Source: Comamonas testosteroni (GTDB lineage: Bacteria > Pseudomonadota > Gammaproteobacteria > Burkholderiales > Burkholderiaceae_C). Taken from it: 64,000 bases of DNA. The translations under genes were made by a program, and so were the position numbers. Where the stretch lies: contig NZ_CP129672.1 in NCBI RefSeq assembly GCF_030505195.1, forward strand, positions 4,994,501 to 5,058,500. The letters are read 5' to 3'. Positions 6,462 through 47,739 of the stretch are shown piece by piece (within the stretch, counting starts at the first letter, position 1; each line of letters opens with the position of its first letter). The notes below the pieces were generated by a model, which saw only the letters and a program-made list of their open reading frames with translations, was not told the DNA's origin and did no database searches.

Positions 6462-7312
6462 TGAGTGAAACCCTGAATCATTGTGTGGATGCTCTGGCGC
6501 TGTGGCGCCTGCAGGACTGGCTGCATGCGCACCCGCGCGTGGTGGTCATTGGTGGTGCCGGCTGCAGCACCGAAGCCGGCATTCCCGACTATCGTGACCG
6601 CAACGGACAGTGGAAGCGTCCACAGCCCGTGACCTATCAGGCCTTCATGGGCGATGTGCTGGTGCGTCAGCGCTACTGGGCGCGTTCCATGCTGGGCTGG
6701 CGCGTGATGGGTCAGGCGCGGCCCGGTTCCGCCCACCAGGCCCTGGCGCGACTGGAGCGGCAAGGCCGGCTGGAGTTGCTGATCACCCAGAATGTCGATG
6801 GCCTGCATGATGCGGCCGGCAGCCTGAACATCGTGGACCTGCACGGGCGCATCGACACCGTACGCTGCATGGACTGCGACAAGCGCTCTGCCCGTGCCGA
6901 TCTGCAGCAGCGGCTGTTGGCACTGAACCCGGCCTGGGCCCAGCTCTATGCCACACCTGCGCCCGATGGCGACGCCGATCTGGAAAACCAGGACTTCAGT
7001 CGCTTTGTCGTGCCGGCCTGCCCACATTGCGCAACGGGCCTGATCAAGCCCGATGTGGTGTTCTTTGGCGAGACCGTGCCGCGTGAGCGCGTGCAGACCT
7101 GCATGGCTGCCGTGGCCAGGGCTGACGCCGTGCTGATCGCCGGCTCTTCATTGATGGTGTATTCGGGTTACCGCTTTGCGCTGGCAGCGCATGAGCAGGG
7201 CAAGTCCATCGTGGCCATCAACCAAGGGGTGACGCGAGCCGATGTATTGCTGGATTTCAAGCTCGAGGCCGATGTGGGCCAGGTCTTGATGGGCCTGATC
7301 GAGGCAAGCTAA
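6461..7312 (+). CDS. Sir2-family NAD-dependent protein deacylase
   Basis: A 283-residue sirtuin. Seen in order: the NAD-binding GAGCSTEAGIPDYRD, the TQNVDGLH motif, catalytic HG (DLHGRIDTVRC), a zinc-binding pair of Cys-x2-Cys sites (CMDC and CPHC), FFGETVP and GSSLMVYSGY. Sirtuins remove acetyl or other acyl groups from lysine using NAD. The sequence resembles the class II (SIRT4-like) bacterial group rather than E. coli CobB. The ATG overlaps the cls stop codon. A low-complexity tetranucleotide tract begins directly after the stop. Confidence 0.9.
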   Translation: MSETLNHCVDALALWRLQDWLHAHPRVVVIGGAGCSTEAGIPDYRDRNGQWKRPQPVTYQAFMGDVLVRQRYWARSMLGWRVMGQARPGSAHQALARLERQGRLELLITQNVDGLHDAAGSLNIVDLHGRIDTVRCMDCDKRSARADLQQRLLALNPAWAQLYATPAPDGDADLENQDFSRFVVPACPHCATGLIKPDVVFFGETVPRERVQTCMAAVARADAVLIAGSSLMVYSGYRFALAAHEQGKSIVAINQGVTRADVLLDFKLEADVGQVLMGLIEAS

Positions 7313-7344
7313 CTCACTCACTCACTCCCTCCCTCCCTCCCTTT
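7311..7344. repeat. Tetranucleotide microsatellite-like tract
   Basis: About four copies of ACTC followed by about four copies of CCTC/TCCC, starting right at the sirtuin stop codon. Simple repeats of this kind are slippage-prone. It lies at the 3' end of the minus-strand reading frame described next. Confidence 0.7.
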
Positions 7345-7733
7345 GCGCAGTCGATGAGGGCAGGGCGCGGCAAACAGTCTGCATATTCCTCGAGCGTGCA
7401 GCGGTCTCGTTGAGGTAGATACATGGCAGCATGCCTCCGGTGTCGGCGATCACGGTCTCGAGTTCATTGCCACCGATCGGGTGCAAATCGTGGCGCAGCA
7501 GCGGCGCATGGCTGCGTTTCATGAAGCGGCGGGGAATGCCAAGGGGGGGGTGTGCCGCGCTTGAGCGGCTCGTGGCCTGCATGGGTGCGGGCCATGCGGC
7601 CAAAGCTCCAGCGTGAAACGCCTGGCGGAGCTGGGGCCGTCGGAATGTGCGGCCGTGCGCCAAAGGTATCGGGCAGTGTGCCGCGCTGGCGTTCAAACAG
7701 ACTGTTCAGGGTTTCGGTGCTACGGAGCATCAT
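7322..7733 (-). pseudogene. Small unrecognised ORF interrupted at a C8 tract
   Basis: GAGGA lies 4 bases before an ATG at 7733, 46 bases downstream of the thiolase stop, so a translated gene is likely. The frame as given is 89 residues (7464-7733: MMLRSTETLNSLFERQRG...) and crosses eight consecutive C residues on the minus strand (G8 on plus, 7543-7550). With seven Cs the frame would continue through a plausible sequence (LGIPRRFMKRSHAPLLRHDL...HPIGGNELETV) to 7322, giving about 136 residues. I do not recognise the family. Options are a phase-variable or decayed gene, a sequencing error in the homopolymer, or a short real ORF. Confidence 0.4.
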
Positions 7734-14468: not shown

Positions 14469-15695
14469 TCAACCCTTGATGCAGATCACCTGCTTGAGGG
14501 TATGGACCACTTCCACCAGGTCCTTCTGGGCGGCCATGACGGCGTCGATGTCCTTGTAGGCCATGGGGATCTCGTCGATCACGCCCTCGTCCTTGCGGCA
14601 TTCCACGCCTTCGGTGGCCTTGATCTGGTCAGCCACCGAGTACAGCTTTTTGGCCTTGGTGCGGCTCATTACGCGGCCCGCGCCGTGGCTGCAGCTTTCA
14701 AAGCTCTCGGGGTTGCCCAGGCCGCGCACGATATAGCTGCGCGCGCCCATGCTGCCGGGGATGATGCCCATCTCGCCGCGCTTGGCGCTCACGGCGCCCT
14801 TGCGGGTGACGAACACATCCTCGCCAAAGTGATGCTCCTTCTGCACATAGTTGTGGTGGCAGTTCACGGCCTCCACGTGGGACTCGAAAGGCTTGGTAAT
14901 CACCTGGCGCACGGTGGCGATCAGGTTGGCCATCATCACTTCGCGGTTGCTCATGGCGAACTTCTGCGCCCAGGACACGGCGCGCACATAGTCGCCAAAA
15001 TAGCGGGCACCCTCTTCCAGGTAGGCTAGGTCCCGGTCGGGCAGATTGCGCTGGTGCAGCTCGGCATCCTTCCTGGCCAGCTCGATGAAATGGTTGCCGA
15101 TGGCATTGCCCACGCCACGCGAGCCCGAGTGCAGCATGAACCAGACAAAGCCCAGTTCGTCCAGGCACACTTCCACGAAGTGATTGCCGCTCCCCAGGGT
15201 TCCCAGGTGCTTGCGGTTATTGGTCTTTTCGAGCCTAGGGTGCAGCTCGCACAGCGCGTCGAACTCGTCCACCAGCGTGGCCCATTTCTGGTCCACCAGA
15301 TCGGGAGGGTTCTCCCAGGCGCCAGGATCACGGCCACGGCTTCTGGGTGCCGAGCCATGGGGCACGGCTTTTTCAATGGCCGAGCGCAGCGTGGTCAGGC
15401 TGTCGGGCAGGTCTTCGGCGCGCAGCGTGGTCTTGGCGGCCATCATGCCGCAGCCGATATCCACGCCGACGGCTGCGGGGATGATGGCCTTGACGGTGGG
15501 AATCACCGAGCCGATGGTGGCACCAATGCCCAGGTGCACATCGGGCATGGCGGCAATATGTTTGAAGACAATGGGCAGGCGCGCGGCGTTGGTCAGCTGT
15601 TGCCGGGCTTCGGTTTCCACGGGCACACCCTTGGTCCACATCTTGACGGGCACGCCGCCAGCGACTTCCAGTAGTTGGTAATTGTGTTCGGACAT
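14469..15695 (-). CDS. rtcB: RNA-splicing ligase RtcB
   Basis: A 408-residue GTP- and Mn-dependent RNA ligase that joins 2',3'-cyclic phosphate or 3'-phosphate ends to 5'-OH ends. Seen: MPDVHLGIGATIGSVIP, the metal-binding AVGVDIGCGMMAAKT (Cys near 80), LGTLGSGNHFVEV, MLHSGSRGVGNAIG, NCHHNYVQKE and SHGAGRVMSRTKA, whose His near 334 is the guanylylation site. Length is typical of the E. coli type. AAGGA lies 7 bases before the ATG. It is the main protein product downstream of Ro60 and the Y RNAs. No rtcA cyclase gene follows, unlike enteric operons. Expression should depend on the sigma54 promoter upstream of the Ro60 gene. Confidence 0.96.
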   Translation of the reverse strand: MSEHNYQLLEVAGGVPVKMWTKGVPVETEARQQLTNAARLPIVFKHIAAMPDVHLGIGATIGSVIPTVKAIIPAAVGVDIGCGMMAAKTTLRAEDLPDSLTTLRSAIEKAVPHGSAPRSRGRDPGAWENPPDLVDQKWATLVDEFDALCELHPRLEKTNNRKHLGTLGSGNHFVEVCLDELGFVWFMLHSGSRGVGNAIGNHFIELARKDAELHQRNLPDRDLAYLEEGARYFGDYVRAVSWAQKFAMSNREVMMANLIATVRQVITKPFESHVEAVNCHHNYVQKEHHFGEDVFVTRKGAVSAKRGEMGIIPGSMGARSYIVRGLGNPESFESCSHGAGRVMSRTKAKKLYSVADQIKATEGVECRKDEGVIDEIPMAYKDIDAVMAAQKDLVEVVHTLKQVICIKG

Positions 15696-15821: not shown

Positions 15822-15950
15822 TGCAGCGACAAGGGTTGGTGAAACATCGTGCTCTACCAGGCTGAGCTACAACAGCTTTGCAACTGCTGGCAGGATTCGA
15901 ACCTGCGACCACGAGATTAAAAGTCTGTAGTTCCACCGGCATTCGCTGCA
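15822..15950 (-). ncRNA. Y RNA 1 (YrlA-like, permuted tRNA-like domain)
   Basis: Read on the minus strand from 15950 to 15822. The outer stem is TGCAGCGA with TCGCTGCA (8 bp). An internal loop (ATGCC on one side, AACCCTTG on the other) is followed by the inner stem GGTGGAAC with GTTTCACC; this paired region with a loop is the expected Ro60-binding part. Inside, in permuted order: a small arm AGACTTTTAATCT (15914-15926, like a tRNA-Lys anticodon arm), a perfect T arm (GCAGG-TTCGAAT-CCTGC, 15890-15906), an acceptor-like strand CAGCAGTTGC, loop, the partner strand GCTGTTG, then TA and a canonical D arm (GCTC-AGCCTGGTA-GAGC, 15851-15867). Bacterial Y RNAs next to Ro60 genes with a tRNA-like domain are known (YrlA of Salmonella). 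Confidence 0.85.
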
Positions 15951-16002
15951 GGGCAGCCAAACCGAAAATTCAATGGGACTCACGCTTGCGCAAGTCTTGT
16001 TC

Positions 16003-16106
16003 AAAAAAGGCGGCGCGACCAGAGAAGCAAGACATAGCCATGACCGGTTTCCCGGCTGGGGAATCGAACCCCGGCAACCAGATGTAGTCCTGCTGGCATT
16101 CGCGCC
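16003..16106 (-). ncRNA. Y RNA 2 (T arm but no D arm), ends in a T6 tract
   Basis: Minus strand, 16106 to 16003. Outer stem GGCGCGA with TCGCGCC (7 bp); internal loop ATGCC / TCTCTGG; inner stem AGCAGGAC with GTCTTGCT (8 bp, one GU). It contains a T arm GGGG-TTCGATT-CCCC (16058-16072) and an acceptor-like hairpin closed by a GAAA tetraloop (CCGG-GAAA-CCGG, 16043-16056). There is no recognisable D arm. The outer stem is followed by GCC and six Ts, so the RNA can end at an intrinsic terminator made by its own closing stem. Leaky read-through here would set the ratio of Y RNAs to rtcB message. Confidence 0.78.
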
Positions 16107-16134
16107 AAACTCAAACCATGGTGATGAATGCCTT

Positions 16135-16270
16135 GCTGCGACAAGGGCTGGGTGAAACATAACCCGCGCTGTACCTTTGGCTACCGCTCGTTGATCTTTC
16201 GATCCGACGAGGCGGGCAGGAATCGAACCTGCAATCCGGGCACCCATGTAGTTCCACCGGCATTCGCAGC
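16135..16270 (-). ncRNA. Y RNA 3 (tRNA-like domain)
   Basis: Minus strand, 16270 to 16135. Outer stem GCTGCGA with TCGCAGC (7 bp), the same internal-loop sequences as Y RNA 1 (ATGCC and CAGCCCTTG), and the same inner stem GGTGGAAC with GTTTCACC. Inside: T arm GCAGG-TTCGATT-CCTGC (16216-16232), then an acceptor-like stem (CCGC-C-TCG with CGA-GCGG) whose loop folds into GATC-GAAA-GATC, then TA and a D-arm-like stretch with the GG pair (weaker than in Y RNA 1). The shared stems with Y RNA 1 show that they are duplicated paralogues with diverged inner domains. Confidence 0.82.
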
Positions 16271-16313
16271 CAGTCATTCAAACCGTTCAACTTCATCCAG
16301 GACATCTGCTGCG

Positions 16314-16372
16314 GGCGACAAGGGGTTGGTGAGACGGGACAGTTTGGATATGTAGTCCCACCAGCATTCGCC
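16314..16372 (-). ncRNA. Y RNA 4 (minimal, Ro-binding stem only)
   Basis: Minus strand, 16372 to 16314, directly after the Ro60 stop codon. Outer stem GGCGA with TCGCC, internal loop ATGC / ACCCCTTG, inner stem TGGTGGGAC with GTCTCACCA, closed by a loop of about 19 bases. It keeps the Ro-binding features of the other three RNAs (GCGAATGC, ACTAC, CACCAACC, CTTGTCGC) but has no tRNA-like domain, comparable to short second Y RNAs (YrlB) of other bacteria. Confidence 0.75.
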
Positions 16373-16394
16373 AACAACAGATAATCACTTCAAC

Positions 16395-17972
16395 TCACTG
16401 GGACTCGAGAGCGATCTTCTCGATCTCGCCTACCCAGTGCTCGGCGCCAAGCCTGCCTTCGGCAAAACTTGCCACCACATCGAACACCGCATCGCTGAAG
16501 CCGCCGACATTCAGAATGTCGTCACGCTCCATGGCCTGCGTCGTGCCATAGGGCTGGATGTCTATGCAGACCAGCCGGGCGTCGGGGTTGCGCTGCTTGA
16601 TGCGCTCCCACTGCAACATGGTTTCGGTGGCACCGCGGCGCACACCATCGACCCAGGACTCGTTGTCCGAGACCATGATCACCATATCCACCCTTGCCTT
16701 TTCATCGGCCAACTGCTTCAGTGGTGCACTGCAGTTGGTACCGCCGCCGCCGATCTTTGCTAGCTTGGTCGCATTGGTCATCACCGAGTCGCGGCCGTTG
16801 AGCTCCAGCTTCACCACCTTCTGCTCGAAGGGCAGTACACGGGCCGTCCTGTTCTTGCGCAGCACGGCGGCGGCCATCAGGCCGGCCACATCGATGCAGC
16901 GCACCGCCGTGGTGGCTCCGGTGCGATAACCCGTCACTGGGCTGTGCATGGAGCCTGATACATCGGGGCAGACCACTACCGCTCCTGCAAAGCAGGGCAC
17001 ATTGGCAATGGCATGCTCCATGGCATCTTGCAGCGCATCGCGCACCTGGGCCGGTACCTGCTCACCGGCAGCCTGGTAGGCCGACAGCAGTTGGTAGGGC
17101 ATGGCACGGGCCTTGGCCACGGCGTCGGCATCTCCCAGCTTGTGGGCGACCAGTGCCGCCATTCCCTTGATCTCGAACACGCCATGGCGTGCAAAGGTGT
17201 TGAGGTTCTGGCGCACCATCTGCCATGAGCCGCTGCGGGCGATCTGCGCCCATTGCTGGGCTTTCAGCTCAAGTGCGGTCAGCATCTGAAACGGCACATC
17301 AGGCAGCTCGGCACTCACCAGGCCCTGGGCCGCATCGCGCTTGAAACGCTCGAAGGCCTGGGTGATGGGAGGCAGAGATGCCTCATCAAAAGGCTTGCCG
17401 ATCAACCAGGCAAACCATGCGGAACGCCAAGCCTCCTGAGGCTTGGGGTGCACCATCTTCACCACATCGGCGAGCGATGGCTGCTTGCCCACGCAAGCGC
17501 TGAGCAGTTGCTTCTCGCTCGCATTGAGCAGCCAGTTCTGCACCAGCTTCTTGGGTGCCGAGCCCAGGGACTTGCGACCCATGGCGCCGCTGCGCACGAT
17601 CTGCACAAAGTTGCGCAGCATCTTGCCGTTGTCGATCACGCGGCCAAACACCTGGCTCAGCAGCGCGGTATCCCATACAGCCAGCGCGGCAGCCAGAGTG
17701 GCTGGCATGTCCTTCATATAGCCGCGTTGGCGGGCATAGACGGCCGTCTGGGCGGTAAAGCGCGTGTCCACCTCCAGCACCAGATTGCCCAACTGCTCCA
17801 GCTGATCCTGACCGCTGGCATAGAAAGTCTGGCTCAGGCAGCCGGTCACGGCCATCTGGGCCAACTGGTGGCGGGGGCTGAAGGCATAGGCTGCGGCGCC
17901 TTCCTGATTGACCGTGTTGGCGGCTGCAGTCAGTGCGCCGCGGCTGGTTTGAAACAATTGCGTGTTGACCAT
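16395..17972 (-). CDS. rsr: Ro60 orthologue (TROVE and vWA domains; Rsr)
   Basis: A 525-residue ring-type RNA-binding protein. Residues about 15-330 form the TROVE HEAT-repeat ring (RHQLAQMAVTGCLSQTFYAS, TRFTAQTAVYARQRGYMKD, RNFVQIVRSGAMGRKSLGS). Residues about 330-520 form a von Willebrand A domain with a MIDAS site: DVSGSMHS near 337, GGGTNCSAPL (Thr ligand) and MVSDNESW (Asp ligand). Family members bind Y RNAs on the ring surface and single-stranded ends of damaged or misfolded RNAs in the central hole. ATG 17972 is preferred (AGGAG upstream) over an ATG at 17996. The four Y RNAs and rtcB follow on the same strand, and a sigma54 promoter precedes. Confidence 0.93.
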   Translation of the reverse strand: MVNTQLFQTSRGALTAAANTVNQEGAAAYAFSPRHQLAQMAVTGCLSQTFYASGQDQLEQLGNLVLEVDTRFTAQTAVYARQRGYMKDMPATLAAALAVWDTALLSQVFGRVIDNGKMLRNFVQIVRSGAMGRKSLGSAPKKLVQNWLLNASEKQLLSACVGKQPSLADVVKMVHPKPQEAWRSAWFAWLIGKPFDEASLPPITQAFERFKRDAAQGLVSAELPDVPFQMLTALELKAQQWAQIARSGSWQMVRQNLNTFARHGVFEIKGMAALVAHKLGDADAVAKARAMPYQLLSAYQAAGEQVPAQVRDALQDAMEHAIANVPCFAGAVVVCPDVSGSMHSPVTGYRTGATTAVRCIDVAGLMAAAVLRKNRTARVLPFEQKVVKLELNGRDSVMTNATKLAKIGGGGTNCSAPLKQLADEKARVDMVIMVSDNESWVDGVRRGATETMLQWERIKQRNPDARLVCIDIQPYGTTQAMERDDILNVGGFSDAVFDVVASFAEGRLGAEHWVGEIEKIALESQ

Positions 17973-18015
17973 TCTTCTTCTCCTGTTTGCATTCAACTTG
18001 CAGATGCTTAGGTTA

Positions 18016-18032
18016 TTGCAAGCGGTGTGCCA
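18016..18032 (-). promoter_or_regulatory. Sigma54 promoter of the Ro60-Y RNA-rtcB operon
   Basis: On the minus strand the sequence reads TGGCAC-N5-TTGCA with GG/GC spacing exact for a -24/-12 element (consensus TGGCAC-N5-TTGCA). It lies 44 bases upstream of the Ro60 start codon and faces it. The divergent gene encodes RtcR, a sigma54-dependent activator, so the pairing of activator and promoter is as expected for rtc operons. Confidence 0.9.
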
Positions 18033-18174: not shown

Positions 18175-19785
18175 ATGTCAAAAAAGAATGTGGTGATTGG
18201 CTTCATGGGAACGCAGCTCGATTCAGGGCAGGGAGCAGGGCGCTGGAGCAAGTGGCGGCCTACGGTATCTCTGATGCAGCATGAAGACCAGGTGATAGAC
18301 CGGCTGGAGCTGCTGTACTCCAGCCGCTACGACAAGCTGGCGCAGACCCTGGTGCAGGACATTGCCAATGTCTCGCCCGAAACCCGGGTCAATCTGGTGG
18401 ACTCCGATGTCCAGGACCCTTGGGATTTTGGCGAGATGTATGCCTCGCTTTACGACTGGGCGCGCAATTACCGCTTTGATACCGAGCGCGAGAATTACTG
18501 GGTACACATCACCACGGGCACCCATGTGGCGCAGATTTGCATGTTCCTTATGGTGGAGTCGCGCCAGATACCGGGTGTGCTGCTGCAGACCTCGCCACCG
18601 CGCAAGCAGCAGATGGGCTCGCCGGGCAACATGATCCTGATCGATCTGGACCTCACGCGCTACGAAGCCCTGGCCCAGCGCTTCCATCTGGCCCAGACCG
18701 AGGCGCTGGACTTCCTCAAGAACGGCATAGCCACGCGCAACCCGCAGTTCAACCAGTTGATTGAAGAGATAGAGCGCGTGGCGATTCGCTCGCGTGCACC
18801 GATTCTTTTCACCGGGCCCACGGGTGCGGGCAAGTCGCATCTGGCGCGGCGCATCTTCGAGCTCAAGAAATCGCGCCACCAGGTGGCCGGCGATTTTGTC
18901 GAGGTCAACTGCGCCACCTTGCGTGGTGACGGCGCGGCCTCCACCTTGTTCGGCCACAGAAAGGGAGCGTTCACCGGGGCGGCGGCAGACCGTGCTGGCC
19001 TGCTGCGCACGGCGCATGAAGGCGTGCTGTTTCTCGACGAGATCGGCGAGCTCGGTCTGGACGAGCAGGCCATGCTGCTCAAGGCCGTGGAGGAAAAGCG
19101 CTTTTTCCCCATGGGCAGCGACAAGGAGGTCAGCAGCGATTTTCAGCTCATAGCCGGCACTCACCGTGACCTGCGCGTCGATGTGGCCGAGGGGCGCTTT
19201 CGCGAAGACCTGTTTGCGCGTATCAATCTCTGGTCCTATACCTTGCCGGGCCTGGCACAGCGCCCCGAAGATCTGGAGCCCAATATCGACCACCTGCTGC
19301 TTCGCGCCGTGGCCGAGACCGGCAGCTCCGTGCGCTTCAACGCCGAGGCCAGGGCGCTGTATCTGCAGTTCGCCAAGTCTGCCCAGGCTCCCTGGAGCGG
19401 CAACTTCCGCGACCTTGCGGCCAGCATCACGCGGCTGGCCACGCTGGCCGACAGCGGTCGCATCACGACCAGGCAGGTGGAGGCCGAGATCAAGCGCCTG
19501 GACTGGCTGTGGCAGCATTCGCAAAGCCATGTTCTGCCCAAGGCTGAGGTGGATCTGGGCGACTATCTGTCCGAAGACGCCATCGCCCAGATCGATCTGT
19601 TTGACCGCTTGCAACTGCAGTCCGTCATCGCCGTCTGCCGCGCATCGACCACGCTGTCCGATGCGGGTCGCAAACTGTTTGACCAGTCGCGCCAGCAAAA
19701 AGCCGTGGTCAACGATGCAGACCGGCTGCGCAAATTTCTGCATAAATTTGGTTTGAATTGGGAGCAGCTCAAACAAACATATTGA
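18175..19785 (+). CDS. rtcR: RtcR, CARF-domain sigma54-dependent transcriptional activator
   Basis: A 536-residue activator. Residues 1-185 are the RtcR CARF-like Rossmann sensor (VVIGFMGTQLDSG, YWVHITTGTHVAQICMFLM). Residues 190-430 form the AAA+ domain with Walker A GPTGAGKSH (near 213), the sigma54-contacting GAFTGA loop (near 264) and Walker B LFLDEIGEL. The C-terminus holds a DNA-binding helix-turn-helix. In enteric bacteria the CARF domain represses the ATPase until an RNA-repair ligand binds. The divergent sigma54 promoter is its expected target; binding sites should lie in 18033-18174, which is AT-rich. The stop codon lies inside a dispersed repeat. All motor residues look intact. Confidence 0.95.
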   Translation: MSKKNVVIGFMGTQLDSGQGAGRWSKWRPTVSLMQHEDQVIDRLELLYSSRYDKLAQTLVQDIANVSPETRVNLVDSDVQDPWDFGEMYASLYDWARNYRFDTERENYWVHITTGTHVAQICMFLMVESRQIPGVLLQTSPPRKQQMGSPGNMILIDLDLTRYEALAQRFHLAQTEALDFLKNGIATRNPQFNQLIEEIERVAIRSRAPILFTGPTGAGKSHLARRIFELKKSRHQVAGDFVEVNCATLRGDGAASTLFGHRKGAFTGAAADRAGLLRTAHEGVLFLDEIGELGLDEQAMLLKAVEEKRFFPMGSDKEVSSDFQLIAGTHRDLRVDVAEGRFREDLFARINLWSYTLPGLAQRPEDLEPNIDHLLLRAVAETGSSVRFNAEARALYLQFAKSAQAPWSGNFRDLAASITRLATLADSGRITTRQVEAEIKRLDWLWQHSQSHVLPKAEVDLGDYLSEDAIAQIDLFDRLQLQSVIAVCRASTTLSDAGRKLFDQSRQQKAVVNDADRLRKFLHKFGLNWEQLKQTY

Positions 19786-47352: not shown

Positions 47353-47739
47353 ATGAAGCAAAGACCGCGGATTTATTTCACAGAATCGCAGATGTCGCTG
47401 ATGTGGGAACGGCTGGAAAGCCGGCGATACCTTGCACGAGATCGACAAGCTATTTGATCGACTGCACACCTCCATTCATACCATTCTGAGTGCCACGGGG
47501 GTATCCCGCCAATGGTCCAGCATCTGTATCGCAGGGCACTGACGCTGGCCGAGCTTGAAGAAACTTCCAGGGCGTTGGCCGCAGGTGAGTCAATACGCTG
47601 CGTGGCCGCTCGTTTTAAAAGGGCGGTATCCACCGTCAGTCGCGAAATCCAACGCAACGGGGGCAAGACGTGGTTAACGTGCGGCGAATGCCGGCAAAGC
47701 GGCTTGGGAGCGAGCACTGCGGCCCAACCTGACACATAG
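47353..47739 (+). mobile_element. IS30-family transposase, truncated N-terminal fragment (opposite orientation)
   Basis: From ATG 47353 the plus strand reads MKQRPRIYFTESQMSLMWER, shifts frame, then gives the same HTH block as the neighbouring copy (TLAELEETSRALAAGESIRC and RAVSTVSREIQRNGG) and, after a further shift, ANAGKAAWERALRPN. It stops there, losing the whole DDE core. It is head to head with the copy on the minus strand (start codons 31 bases apart) and is diverged from it, so these are two separate insertions, not an inverted duplication. Confidence 0.8.

Follow-up and report, generated by a model that had tools for sequence, protein, structure and literature searches.

Y RNA-like elements with a common Ro-binding module and different heads in an RtcR-type RNA-repair operon of Comamonas testosteroni

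The RtcR/sigma54 RNA-repair operon of Comamonas testosteroni probably produces, together with Ro60 and RtcB, four Y RNAs that have a Ro60-docking module in common and differ in the heads attached to it. The four elements, designated Y1 to Y4, were found between rsr and rtcB in the 64-kb window, which is the whole stretch of DNA analysed in this study. Their stems, their classes, the order of these classes and the cloverleaf register of Y4 are supported by comparison with related loci. Our best guess is that the Y RNAs serve as Ro60 adaptors with different heads, one of which would mimic a whole tRNA.

The rsr–rtcB operon

The rsr gene (16395..17996, minus strand) encodes an orthologue of Ro60, a protein of RNA quality control. 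Its product exceeds the Pfam cut-offs for TROVE (26.5 bits, cut-off 23) and for vWA_Ro60 (75.4 bits, cut-off 27.7); in a six-frame search of the genome TROVE reached 20.2 bits, which is under the cut-off. Among proteins of solved structure, Rsr (2nvo, E 6e-20) is the top match, and the protein is 98% identical to its orthologue from C. testosteroni ATCC 11996. The NCBIfam Rsr equivalog model NF041674 gave only 77.4 bits against a cut-off of 900. As predicted from its sequence, the Ro60 of the window is a divergent Rsr. The start codon of rsr is probably the ATG at 17972, which is preceded by an AGGAG-like site, rather than the TTG of the longest open reading frame (17967-17996).

The rtcB gene (14469..15695, minus strand) encodes an RNA ligase matching PF01139 with 427.7 bits; the NCBIfam RtcB-type models also match the product, all under their cut-offs. 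The divergently oriented rtcR gene (18175..19785, plus strand) encodes a sigma54 activator (NF038308, 824.8 bits, cut-off 650). A promoter-like motif for sigma54, TGGCACACCGCTTGCA, is located upstream of rsr (18017..18032, minus strand) and is the only match to the sigma54 site with no mismatch in the window. The genes are arranged in the order rsr, Y RNAs, rtcB, with rtcR divergent, and the RtcR activator, the sigma54 promoter and RtcB that characterise an RtcR RNA-repair operon are all present. A search of the genome with PF01137 for the RtcA cyclase gave no match.

Four elements with a common Ro-binding module

Measured from GCGA to TCGC, the four elements span the positions 16315-16371 (Y1), 16138-16267 (Y2), 16015-16103 (Y3) and 15826-15946 (Y4) on the minus strand, and their outer stems run 1-4 nt beyond these ends. 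The module common to all of them consists of an outer stem (5, 7, 8 and 8 bp), the internal loop AAUGC / NNNCUUG (CUGG in Y3) and an inner stem of 6-9 bp. A module finder, which requires the 5′ motif, four closing pairs, the inner stem and the loop spacing, was run on both strands of the window. At a score of at least 11 it returned Y1–Y4 only (14.9-16.3), and lowering the threshold to 9 added a single match at 47436-47479 with a score of 10.1. General features of bacterial Y RNAs are a position beside a Ro60/Rsr gene and a conserved Ro-binding stem. Both are found in all four elements, which look like real Y RNAs.

An earlier sequence-only reading of this DNA had placed four Y-like elements on the minus strand between Ro60 and rtcB, and the module finder recovered exactly these. 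The sequences which that reading described as shared near the two ends are common to all elements at one end, where GCGAATGC is present in four of four, and to three elements at the other, where Y3 has CTGGTCGC instead of CTTGTCGC. Its outer stems of 5-8 bp stand, while for the inner stems 6-9 bp has to be given rather than 8-9 bp.

The heads of the four elements are different. Y1 (16314..16372, minus strand), identified by the module finder and in the alignment of its class, beta, is a bare Ro-binding hairpin of YrlB-like architecture, with an outer stem of 5 bp, an inner stem of 8-9 bp and a possible small ACA/UGU cap. Y3 (16011..16107, minus strand), of class gamma, consists of the Ro stem, a T arm (16058-16072) and a GAAA-capped acceptor-like hairpin (16044-16055), without a D arm. 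Y2 (16135..16270, minus strand), of cluster C8, is YrlA-like without an anticodon loop and contains a T arm (16216-16232), a long acceptor-like hairpin (16184-16215) and a degenerate D arm (16168-16183), GCC..AGC, which is mismatched in the YrlA alignment. Y4 (15822..15950, minus strand), of class delta, is YrlA-like with all three arms. The heads of Y1, without tRNA parts, and of Y3, without a D arm, had been described in this way before; the description of Y2 and Y4 as both having T arm, acceptor-like stem and D arm is right for Y4 and has to be amended for Y2.

The covariance-model search suggested in the earlier reading was performed with the Rfam models. Against YrlA (RF02553, gathering threshold 69 bits), Y4 scored 76.3 bits, above the threshold, and Y2 (52.2 bits) and Y3 (26.5 bits) fell below it. 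Y1 gave no Y RNA match at E values up to 5, the only overlap being a sub-threshold one with H19_2. YrlB (RF02565, gathering threshold 97 bits) accordingly did not match Y1 at this E value, and its only match in the region was Y3 with 21.6 bits. The tRNA model RF00005 matched a part of Y4 with 22.4 bits, under the cut-off of 29. In terms of architecture, the permuted T arm, acceptor and D arm of YrlA on a Ro-binding stem are present in Y4, accompanied by degeneration of the D arm in Y2, reduced by the D arm in Y3 and absent from Y1. Three further YrlA-like matches in the genome, of 40.4 bits each, were rejected. They straddle tandem tRNA genes repeated every 125 nt (G000:C1:1594875-1595322), an arrangement that scores as YrlA-like since each T arm is followed by the D arm of the neighbouring gene.

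The tRNA-like head of Y4

The head of Y4 reads as a complete circularly permuted tRNA including the anticodon arm. Starting from the Ro stem, it proceeds through tRNA positions 30-31 (GA), the 7-nt loop 32-38 (CUUUUAA, anticodon UUU), positions 39-43 (UCUCG) and the variable positions 44-48 (UGGUC) to the T arm. This is followed by the closed acceptor stem, U8 and A9, the D arm, A26, positions 27-29 (CGA) and the return to the Ro stem. On the minus strand, the 3′ part of the anticodon arm, positions 30-43 (GA, CTTTTAA, TCTCG), lies at 15912..15925, with the loop CTTTTAA at 15917-15923 and the anticodon TTT at 15919-15921. The T arm is located at 15890..15906, and the acceptor stem at 15870..15889; the latter has 7 bp, one or two of them G-U, and is closed by a loop where a tRNA has its two ends. 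The D arm, which reads GCTC..GAGC and has GG in the loop, occupies 15851..15867, and positions 27-29 (CGA) at 15847..15849 are the partner of 15912-15914 in the anticodon stem. All five anticodon-stem pairs can be formed, and the Ro stem is inserted in the 5′ strand of this stem, between positions 29 and 30. The sequence-only reading had recognised a full tRNA mimic, a term that suits Y4, and had overlooked the anticodon arm.

No linear tRNA gene was detected by ARAGORN in the window. Rotated Y4 heads were folded into a cloverleaf by the same program in 348 of 2203 cases. Since the anticodon it called shifted with the point at which the Ro stem was cut, an explicit register test was used instead. 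The test set comprised those elements from the related loci described below that have a T arm of at least 4 pairs and a four-pair D arm with a GG loop (72 of 238), and a variable loop of 4-6 nt was allowed. All five anticodon-stem pairs are present in 53 of these 72 elements, compared with a mean of 30.5 and a maximum of 37 when the 27-29 partners were shuffled (300 shuffles); in the remaining 19 the full stem is absent. Within class delta, 45 of 60 elements have the five pairs. With a rigid register, five pairs were found in 42 of 63 delta elements, U33 in 48 and R37 in 57, the mean being 4.33 pairs against 3.25 after shuffling.

Among the 53 five-pair elements, C32 occurs in 47, U33 in 51 and a purine at position 37 in 49, and every one of the five pairs is represented by more than one Watson-Crick type. 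The loop consensus CU-NNN-RA is constant and the anticodons vary: UUU and CUU occur nine times each, UCU and AUU five times each and GUC four times, besides others. Forty of the 53 anticodons are among the 40 read from the fetched tRNA loci of this genome and 13 are absent from them. When the head of Y4 is joined linearly, a sequence of 73 nt is obtained, to which tRNA-Lys(UUU) is the nearest tRNA of the same genome (78%). For the body alone, Lys is nearest by just 0.5 points, and body-only scores barely separate the isotypes (27 own tRNAs usable). For 20 of the 53 elements there is no usable own-genome tRNA with a matching anticodon.

Folding and covariation

The minimum free energies of Y1 (z -3.4) and Y4 (z -3.3) are better than those of all 200 shuffled sequences. 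The values of Y2 and Y3 are weak (z -1.7 each, with 13 and 12 of the 200 shuffles equally good), and the case for these two elements therefore rests on their relatives. The single-sequence fold of Y4 does not contain a cloverleaf. With the delta alignment, RNAalifold recovered the Ro stems and the T, acceptor and D arms and left the anticodon stem unpaired. This alignment (A1) contains only elements preselected for five anticodon pairs, the 53 having been reduced to 48 by taking out over-long elements and core repeats; 46 rows were used, in which the window replaces L001, and L101 and L103 are omitted. Because of the preselection, its percentages for the anticodon helix are given by construction, and the fair test of this helix is the register test with its 53 of 72 elements.

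In the delta alignment, 96.5% of the cells of 36 named pairs are paired against 85.1% after shuffling, 20 of the 36 pairs have changed on both sides against 13.4, and the score is 0.343 against 0.136, the shuffled values being controls rather than probabilities because the sequences are related. The signal is lost when the partners are slid. The beta alignment (A3) contains 33 of 34 rows, with L022 omitted, and the window replaces L001 in both A2 and A3. In its 33 sequences 95.0% of the cells are paired and 7 of 16 pairs have changed on both sides; the cap, with no changed pairs and pairing in 69.6% of the cells, is unsupported. Gamma gives a modest signal, with 88.5% of the cells paired (shuffled 86.3%) and two-sided changes in 10 pairs, compared with 6.1 after shuffling. 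Additional pair types in gamma are not above the shuffled level (275/500), and its GCC/GGC closing stem, paired in 49% of the cells, is unsupported. The paired changes that the sequence-only reading would expect of the stems in relatives are seen in delta and beta and to a modest extent in gamma.

Classes and order of the elements in related loci

From 75 deduplicated loci, L087 was excluded as it is without downstream sequence, which left 74 regions downstream of rsr. With a finder threshold of 15, 170 elements were obtained and Y1 and others were lost. A threshold of 12, chosen after a shuffle check, gave 238 elements in the 74 regions, compared with 0.1 per dinucleotide-shuffled set (10 shuffles). 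The 162 kb upstream of rsr contain four matches, themselves Y-like, in L078 and L081. In these two loci Y-like elements were seen only on the upstream side of rsr; those of L078 start at -2348 and -1800 from the rsr end. Counted as lower bounds, at least one element is present in 63 of the 65 loci with rtcB downstream, and four or more are present in 35, the maximum being ten. The two loci without elements are L086 and L017. The counts are lower bounds because the regions of L016 and L017 began too late, at a stopless frame near the Ro60 end: three and no elements, respectively, are in the clustered set versus four and three on the whole locus.

In a class-level search of 369 genomes, Ro60 matches were obtained in 8, the one of the window included. 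Three of the others are strong, and their loci L106, L107 and L108 contain four, one and one elements. A Ro60 relative with 54% identity, followed by five Y-like elements at 6865-7664, was also observed on a 165-kb viral contig from IMG/VR (L115).

The elements were grouped into classes, which are sequence clusters over at least 75% of the length. Class alpha (19 elements in 19 loci) has two hairpins and no recognised T loop, and class beta (36 in 36 loci, plus 4 in 4 of cluster C9) is bare. Class gamma (40 in 40 loci) has a T arm and an acceptor hairpin, and class delta (64 in 53 loci, single in 43) has T arm, acceptor and D arm. Class epsilon is composed of C4 (12 elements in 12 loci) and C5 (9 in 9). 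In the window, Y1 belongs to beta, Y3 to gamma and Y4 to delta, and Y2 is a member of cluster C8, with 5 elements in 5 Comamonas loci. The rest is made up of smaller clusters, which belong for the most part to other families within the order. The arrangement alpha, beta, gamma, last delta, epsilon is kept in 204 of 207 class pairs, with exceptions in L045, L098 and L102. The bare, T-only and T+D forms occur together in 39 of the 67 element-bearing loci, in 15 of them along with alpha, and all five kinds occur in 8.

These results do not agree with two statements of the sequence-only reading, namely that a four-member set is unusual and that it shows a stepwise loss of tRNA parts in one operon. 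Sets of four or more, and the three forms side by side, are common in the relatives. The top own-class matches of Y1, Y3 and Y4 in other genera reach 77, 121 and 129 bits, compared with 39 bits for the best match within the locus; the elements are thus closer to their own class elsewhere than to each other, which argues against stepwise loss inside the operon. As judged by this comparison, the forms with a bare stem, with the T arm only and with the full head represent distinct classes of greater age, which stand in a fixed order. A local loss of the D arm is plausible for Y2, as this arm is degenerate in the five C8 loci and intact at the same slot in L040 and L045.

Further tRNA-like heads were observed in the relatives. 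The C4 elements are the last Y elements before rtcB in L005, L007, L012-L014, L016, L021, L058-L060, L073 and L097. In 12 of 12, the Ro stem is directly followed by GGTAGACGCA, and its return is directly preceded by GGCGGAG or a variant differing in one letter. The RNAalifold structure of C4 has an anticodon-like hairpin closed by a D stem, besides a long variable hairpin, a T arm and an acceptor capped by a tetraloop; judging by general tRNA features, we take it to be a Leu-type tRNA of class II with its opening in the D loop. The C5 elements (L018, L071, L082, L088, L089, L093, L095, L098 and L103) have the 5′ half in nine of nine and TAGCTCAG at the 3′ half in five of nine, and look like class I tRNAs whose opening is in the D loop and which keep the anticodon-like hairpin. 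Cluster C16, the first elements of L098 and L102, has Leu-like heads that possess a variable arm and have their opening at the anticodon stem. In L019, L020, L023 and L025, three of which are named Undibacterium and one a Burkholderiales MAG, the head of a Y-like element holds CGGTCCTAAG (element motif positions 7654, 7663, 7677 and 7848), a string absent elsewhere in the 796 kb of loci. Presumably it resembles helix 69/71 of 23S rRNA; an Rfam LSU search of L023 gave no match at E values up to 1.

Proposed role of the Y RNAs

In the route that we propose, RtcR would respond to tRNA damage by switching on rsr and rtcB together with the Y RNAs. Ro60 would then be loaded with Y RNAs of differing heads, namely the bare Y1, the minihelix Y3, the partial Y2 and the whole permuted tRNA Y4. 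Through their tRNA-like heads, Y4, Y2 and Y3 may act as tethers for PNPase or further enzymes that bind tRNA; YrlA is reported to associate with Rsr and PNPase and to tether the latter (PMC8394870). The bare Y1 would occupy Ro60 without tethering, so that a single pool of Ro60 could be either tethered or free. Each head might in this way provide Ro60 with its own partner or gate.

An unlikely role, compatible with that of adaptors, is that of a panel of tRNA decoys. The heads on Ro60 would bind or blunt anticodon nucleases or other tRNA-damaging enzymes, the products of which switch on RtcR, and the loop of Y4 would be the bait. In favour of this role are the loop consensus, kept around varying anticodon letters, and the additional tRNA-shaped heads in the relatives. 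According to PMC7790460, the RtcR operon of Salmonella is induced by anticodon-loop tRNA fragments, and YrlA is proposed to be a competitive inhibitor of a nuclease. However, no fragments of YrlA were seen in Salmonella according to the same paper, so that YrlA does not appear to be a substrate there, and an isotype-specific bait is made unlikely by the 13 of 53 anticodons outside the 40 of this genome.

That only one or two of the elements are functional, Y4 and perhaps Y1, like YrlA and YrlB in Salmonella, and that Y2 and Y3 are decaying copies, is distinctly unlikely. Decay would account for the broken D arm of Y2 and the weak folding of Y2 and Y3, and Salmonella has, according to PMC9879122, just yrlB and yrlA, in the same order with the bare form first and the tRNA-like form second. 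Gamma elements, however, occur as a single copy in each of 40 loci, and their T arm and Ro stems are conserved; Y2 is kept in five Comamonas loci.

The location of the elements inside the operon would also be expected of cis-acting structures in the rsr–rtcB message, such as an rtcB leader or attenuator, in place of free RNAs. A run of TTTTTT (16003-16008) comes after Y3, and TTTT follows within 16 nt in 34 of 40 gamma elements, as if the gamma outer stem doubled as a terminator, which could attenuate rtcB; the terminator scan accepts loops of 3-8 nt only, is blind to this stem and counts for neither side. We nevertheless regard a purely cis-acting role as very unlikely in view of the common Ro-binding module, the Y-like elements upstream of rsr in L078 and L081, and the binding of bacterial Y RNAs by Rsr described in the literature. 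The interpretation of the short minus-strand frames 15867-16277 and 16111-16377 as genes, with the repeats due to chance, has virtually no probability: both frames exist, but the module has a mean of 0.1 per shuffled set, the length differences among aligned relatives are not multiples of three, and the stems show paired changes.

The preferred explanation of the Y RNAs as Ro60 adaptors gives the set a wider meaning. According to PMC8394870, a bacterial Y RNA is composed of a Ro-binding stem and of the D, T and acceptor arms of a tRNA. One class would go beyond this description by retaining a whole tRNA including the anticodon loop. Up to five head types in a fixed order offer a natural series, from bare through minihelix and a head without anticodon loop to the full form, in which the purpose of the heads can be probed. 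The Y RNAs are moreover linked in a direct way to an operon whose Salmonella counterpart responds to damage of the anticodon loop. More speculatively, and with a rather small chance of being right, the Burkholderiales Ro60 might carry an ordered panel of tRNA impersonators, with the gamma minihelix, the delta whole tRNA opened in the anticodon stem and, in the relatives, the epsilon whole tRNA opened in the D loop, including the class II Leu-type. The Ro-binding stem would be the same in all of them and the point of the tRNA at which it is attached would differ, and the panel would attract or dock the enzymes that damage and repair tRNA in the operon induced by this damage.

Comparison with known systems

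The closest known counterpart of Y4 is YrlA of Salmonella and others, which has the same GCGAAUGC/CUUGUCGC loop in the Ro stem and the same permuted T, acceptor and D arms, and lies beside rsr and rtcB. The Rfam consensus of YrlA is without an anticodon arm, whereas that of Y4 is a 13-nt insertion. The literature covered by our search, which included parts of PMC7790460, PMC8394870, PMC11472068, PMC4726728, PMC9879122, PMC4987338 and PMC7824862 and had the primary Y RNA papers outside its scope, contains no clear report of a Y RNA with an anticodon. Y1 is similar to YrlB, the bare form of which was read from a portion of the Rfam model; both are bare Ro-binding hairpins nearer to rsr than the tRNA-like element, and Y1 is the shorter one (57 nt, GCGA to TCGC).

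The Rsr/Y RNA/PNPase complex (RYPER) of D. radiodurans, as described in the literature, likewise combines a Ro60 orthologue with a Y RNA tether. One Y RNA is described for D. radiodurans, in contrast to the predicted panel of heads in an RtcR operon here. The rsr-yrlBA-rtcBA operon of Salmonella resembles the window in having RtcR, a sigma54 promoter, rsr, Y RNAs and rtcB in the same order, the Y RNAs starting with the bare form and ending with a tRNA-like one adjacent to rtcB. It contains two Y RNAs instead of four and also rtcA, which was not found in this genome. Judging by these likenesses, the predicted set of the window is one that would work like YrlB and YrlA, but with more heads and with an anticodon arm.
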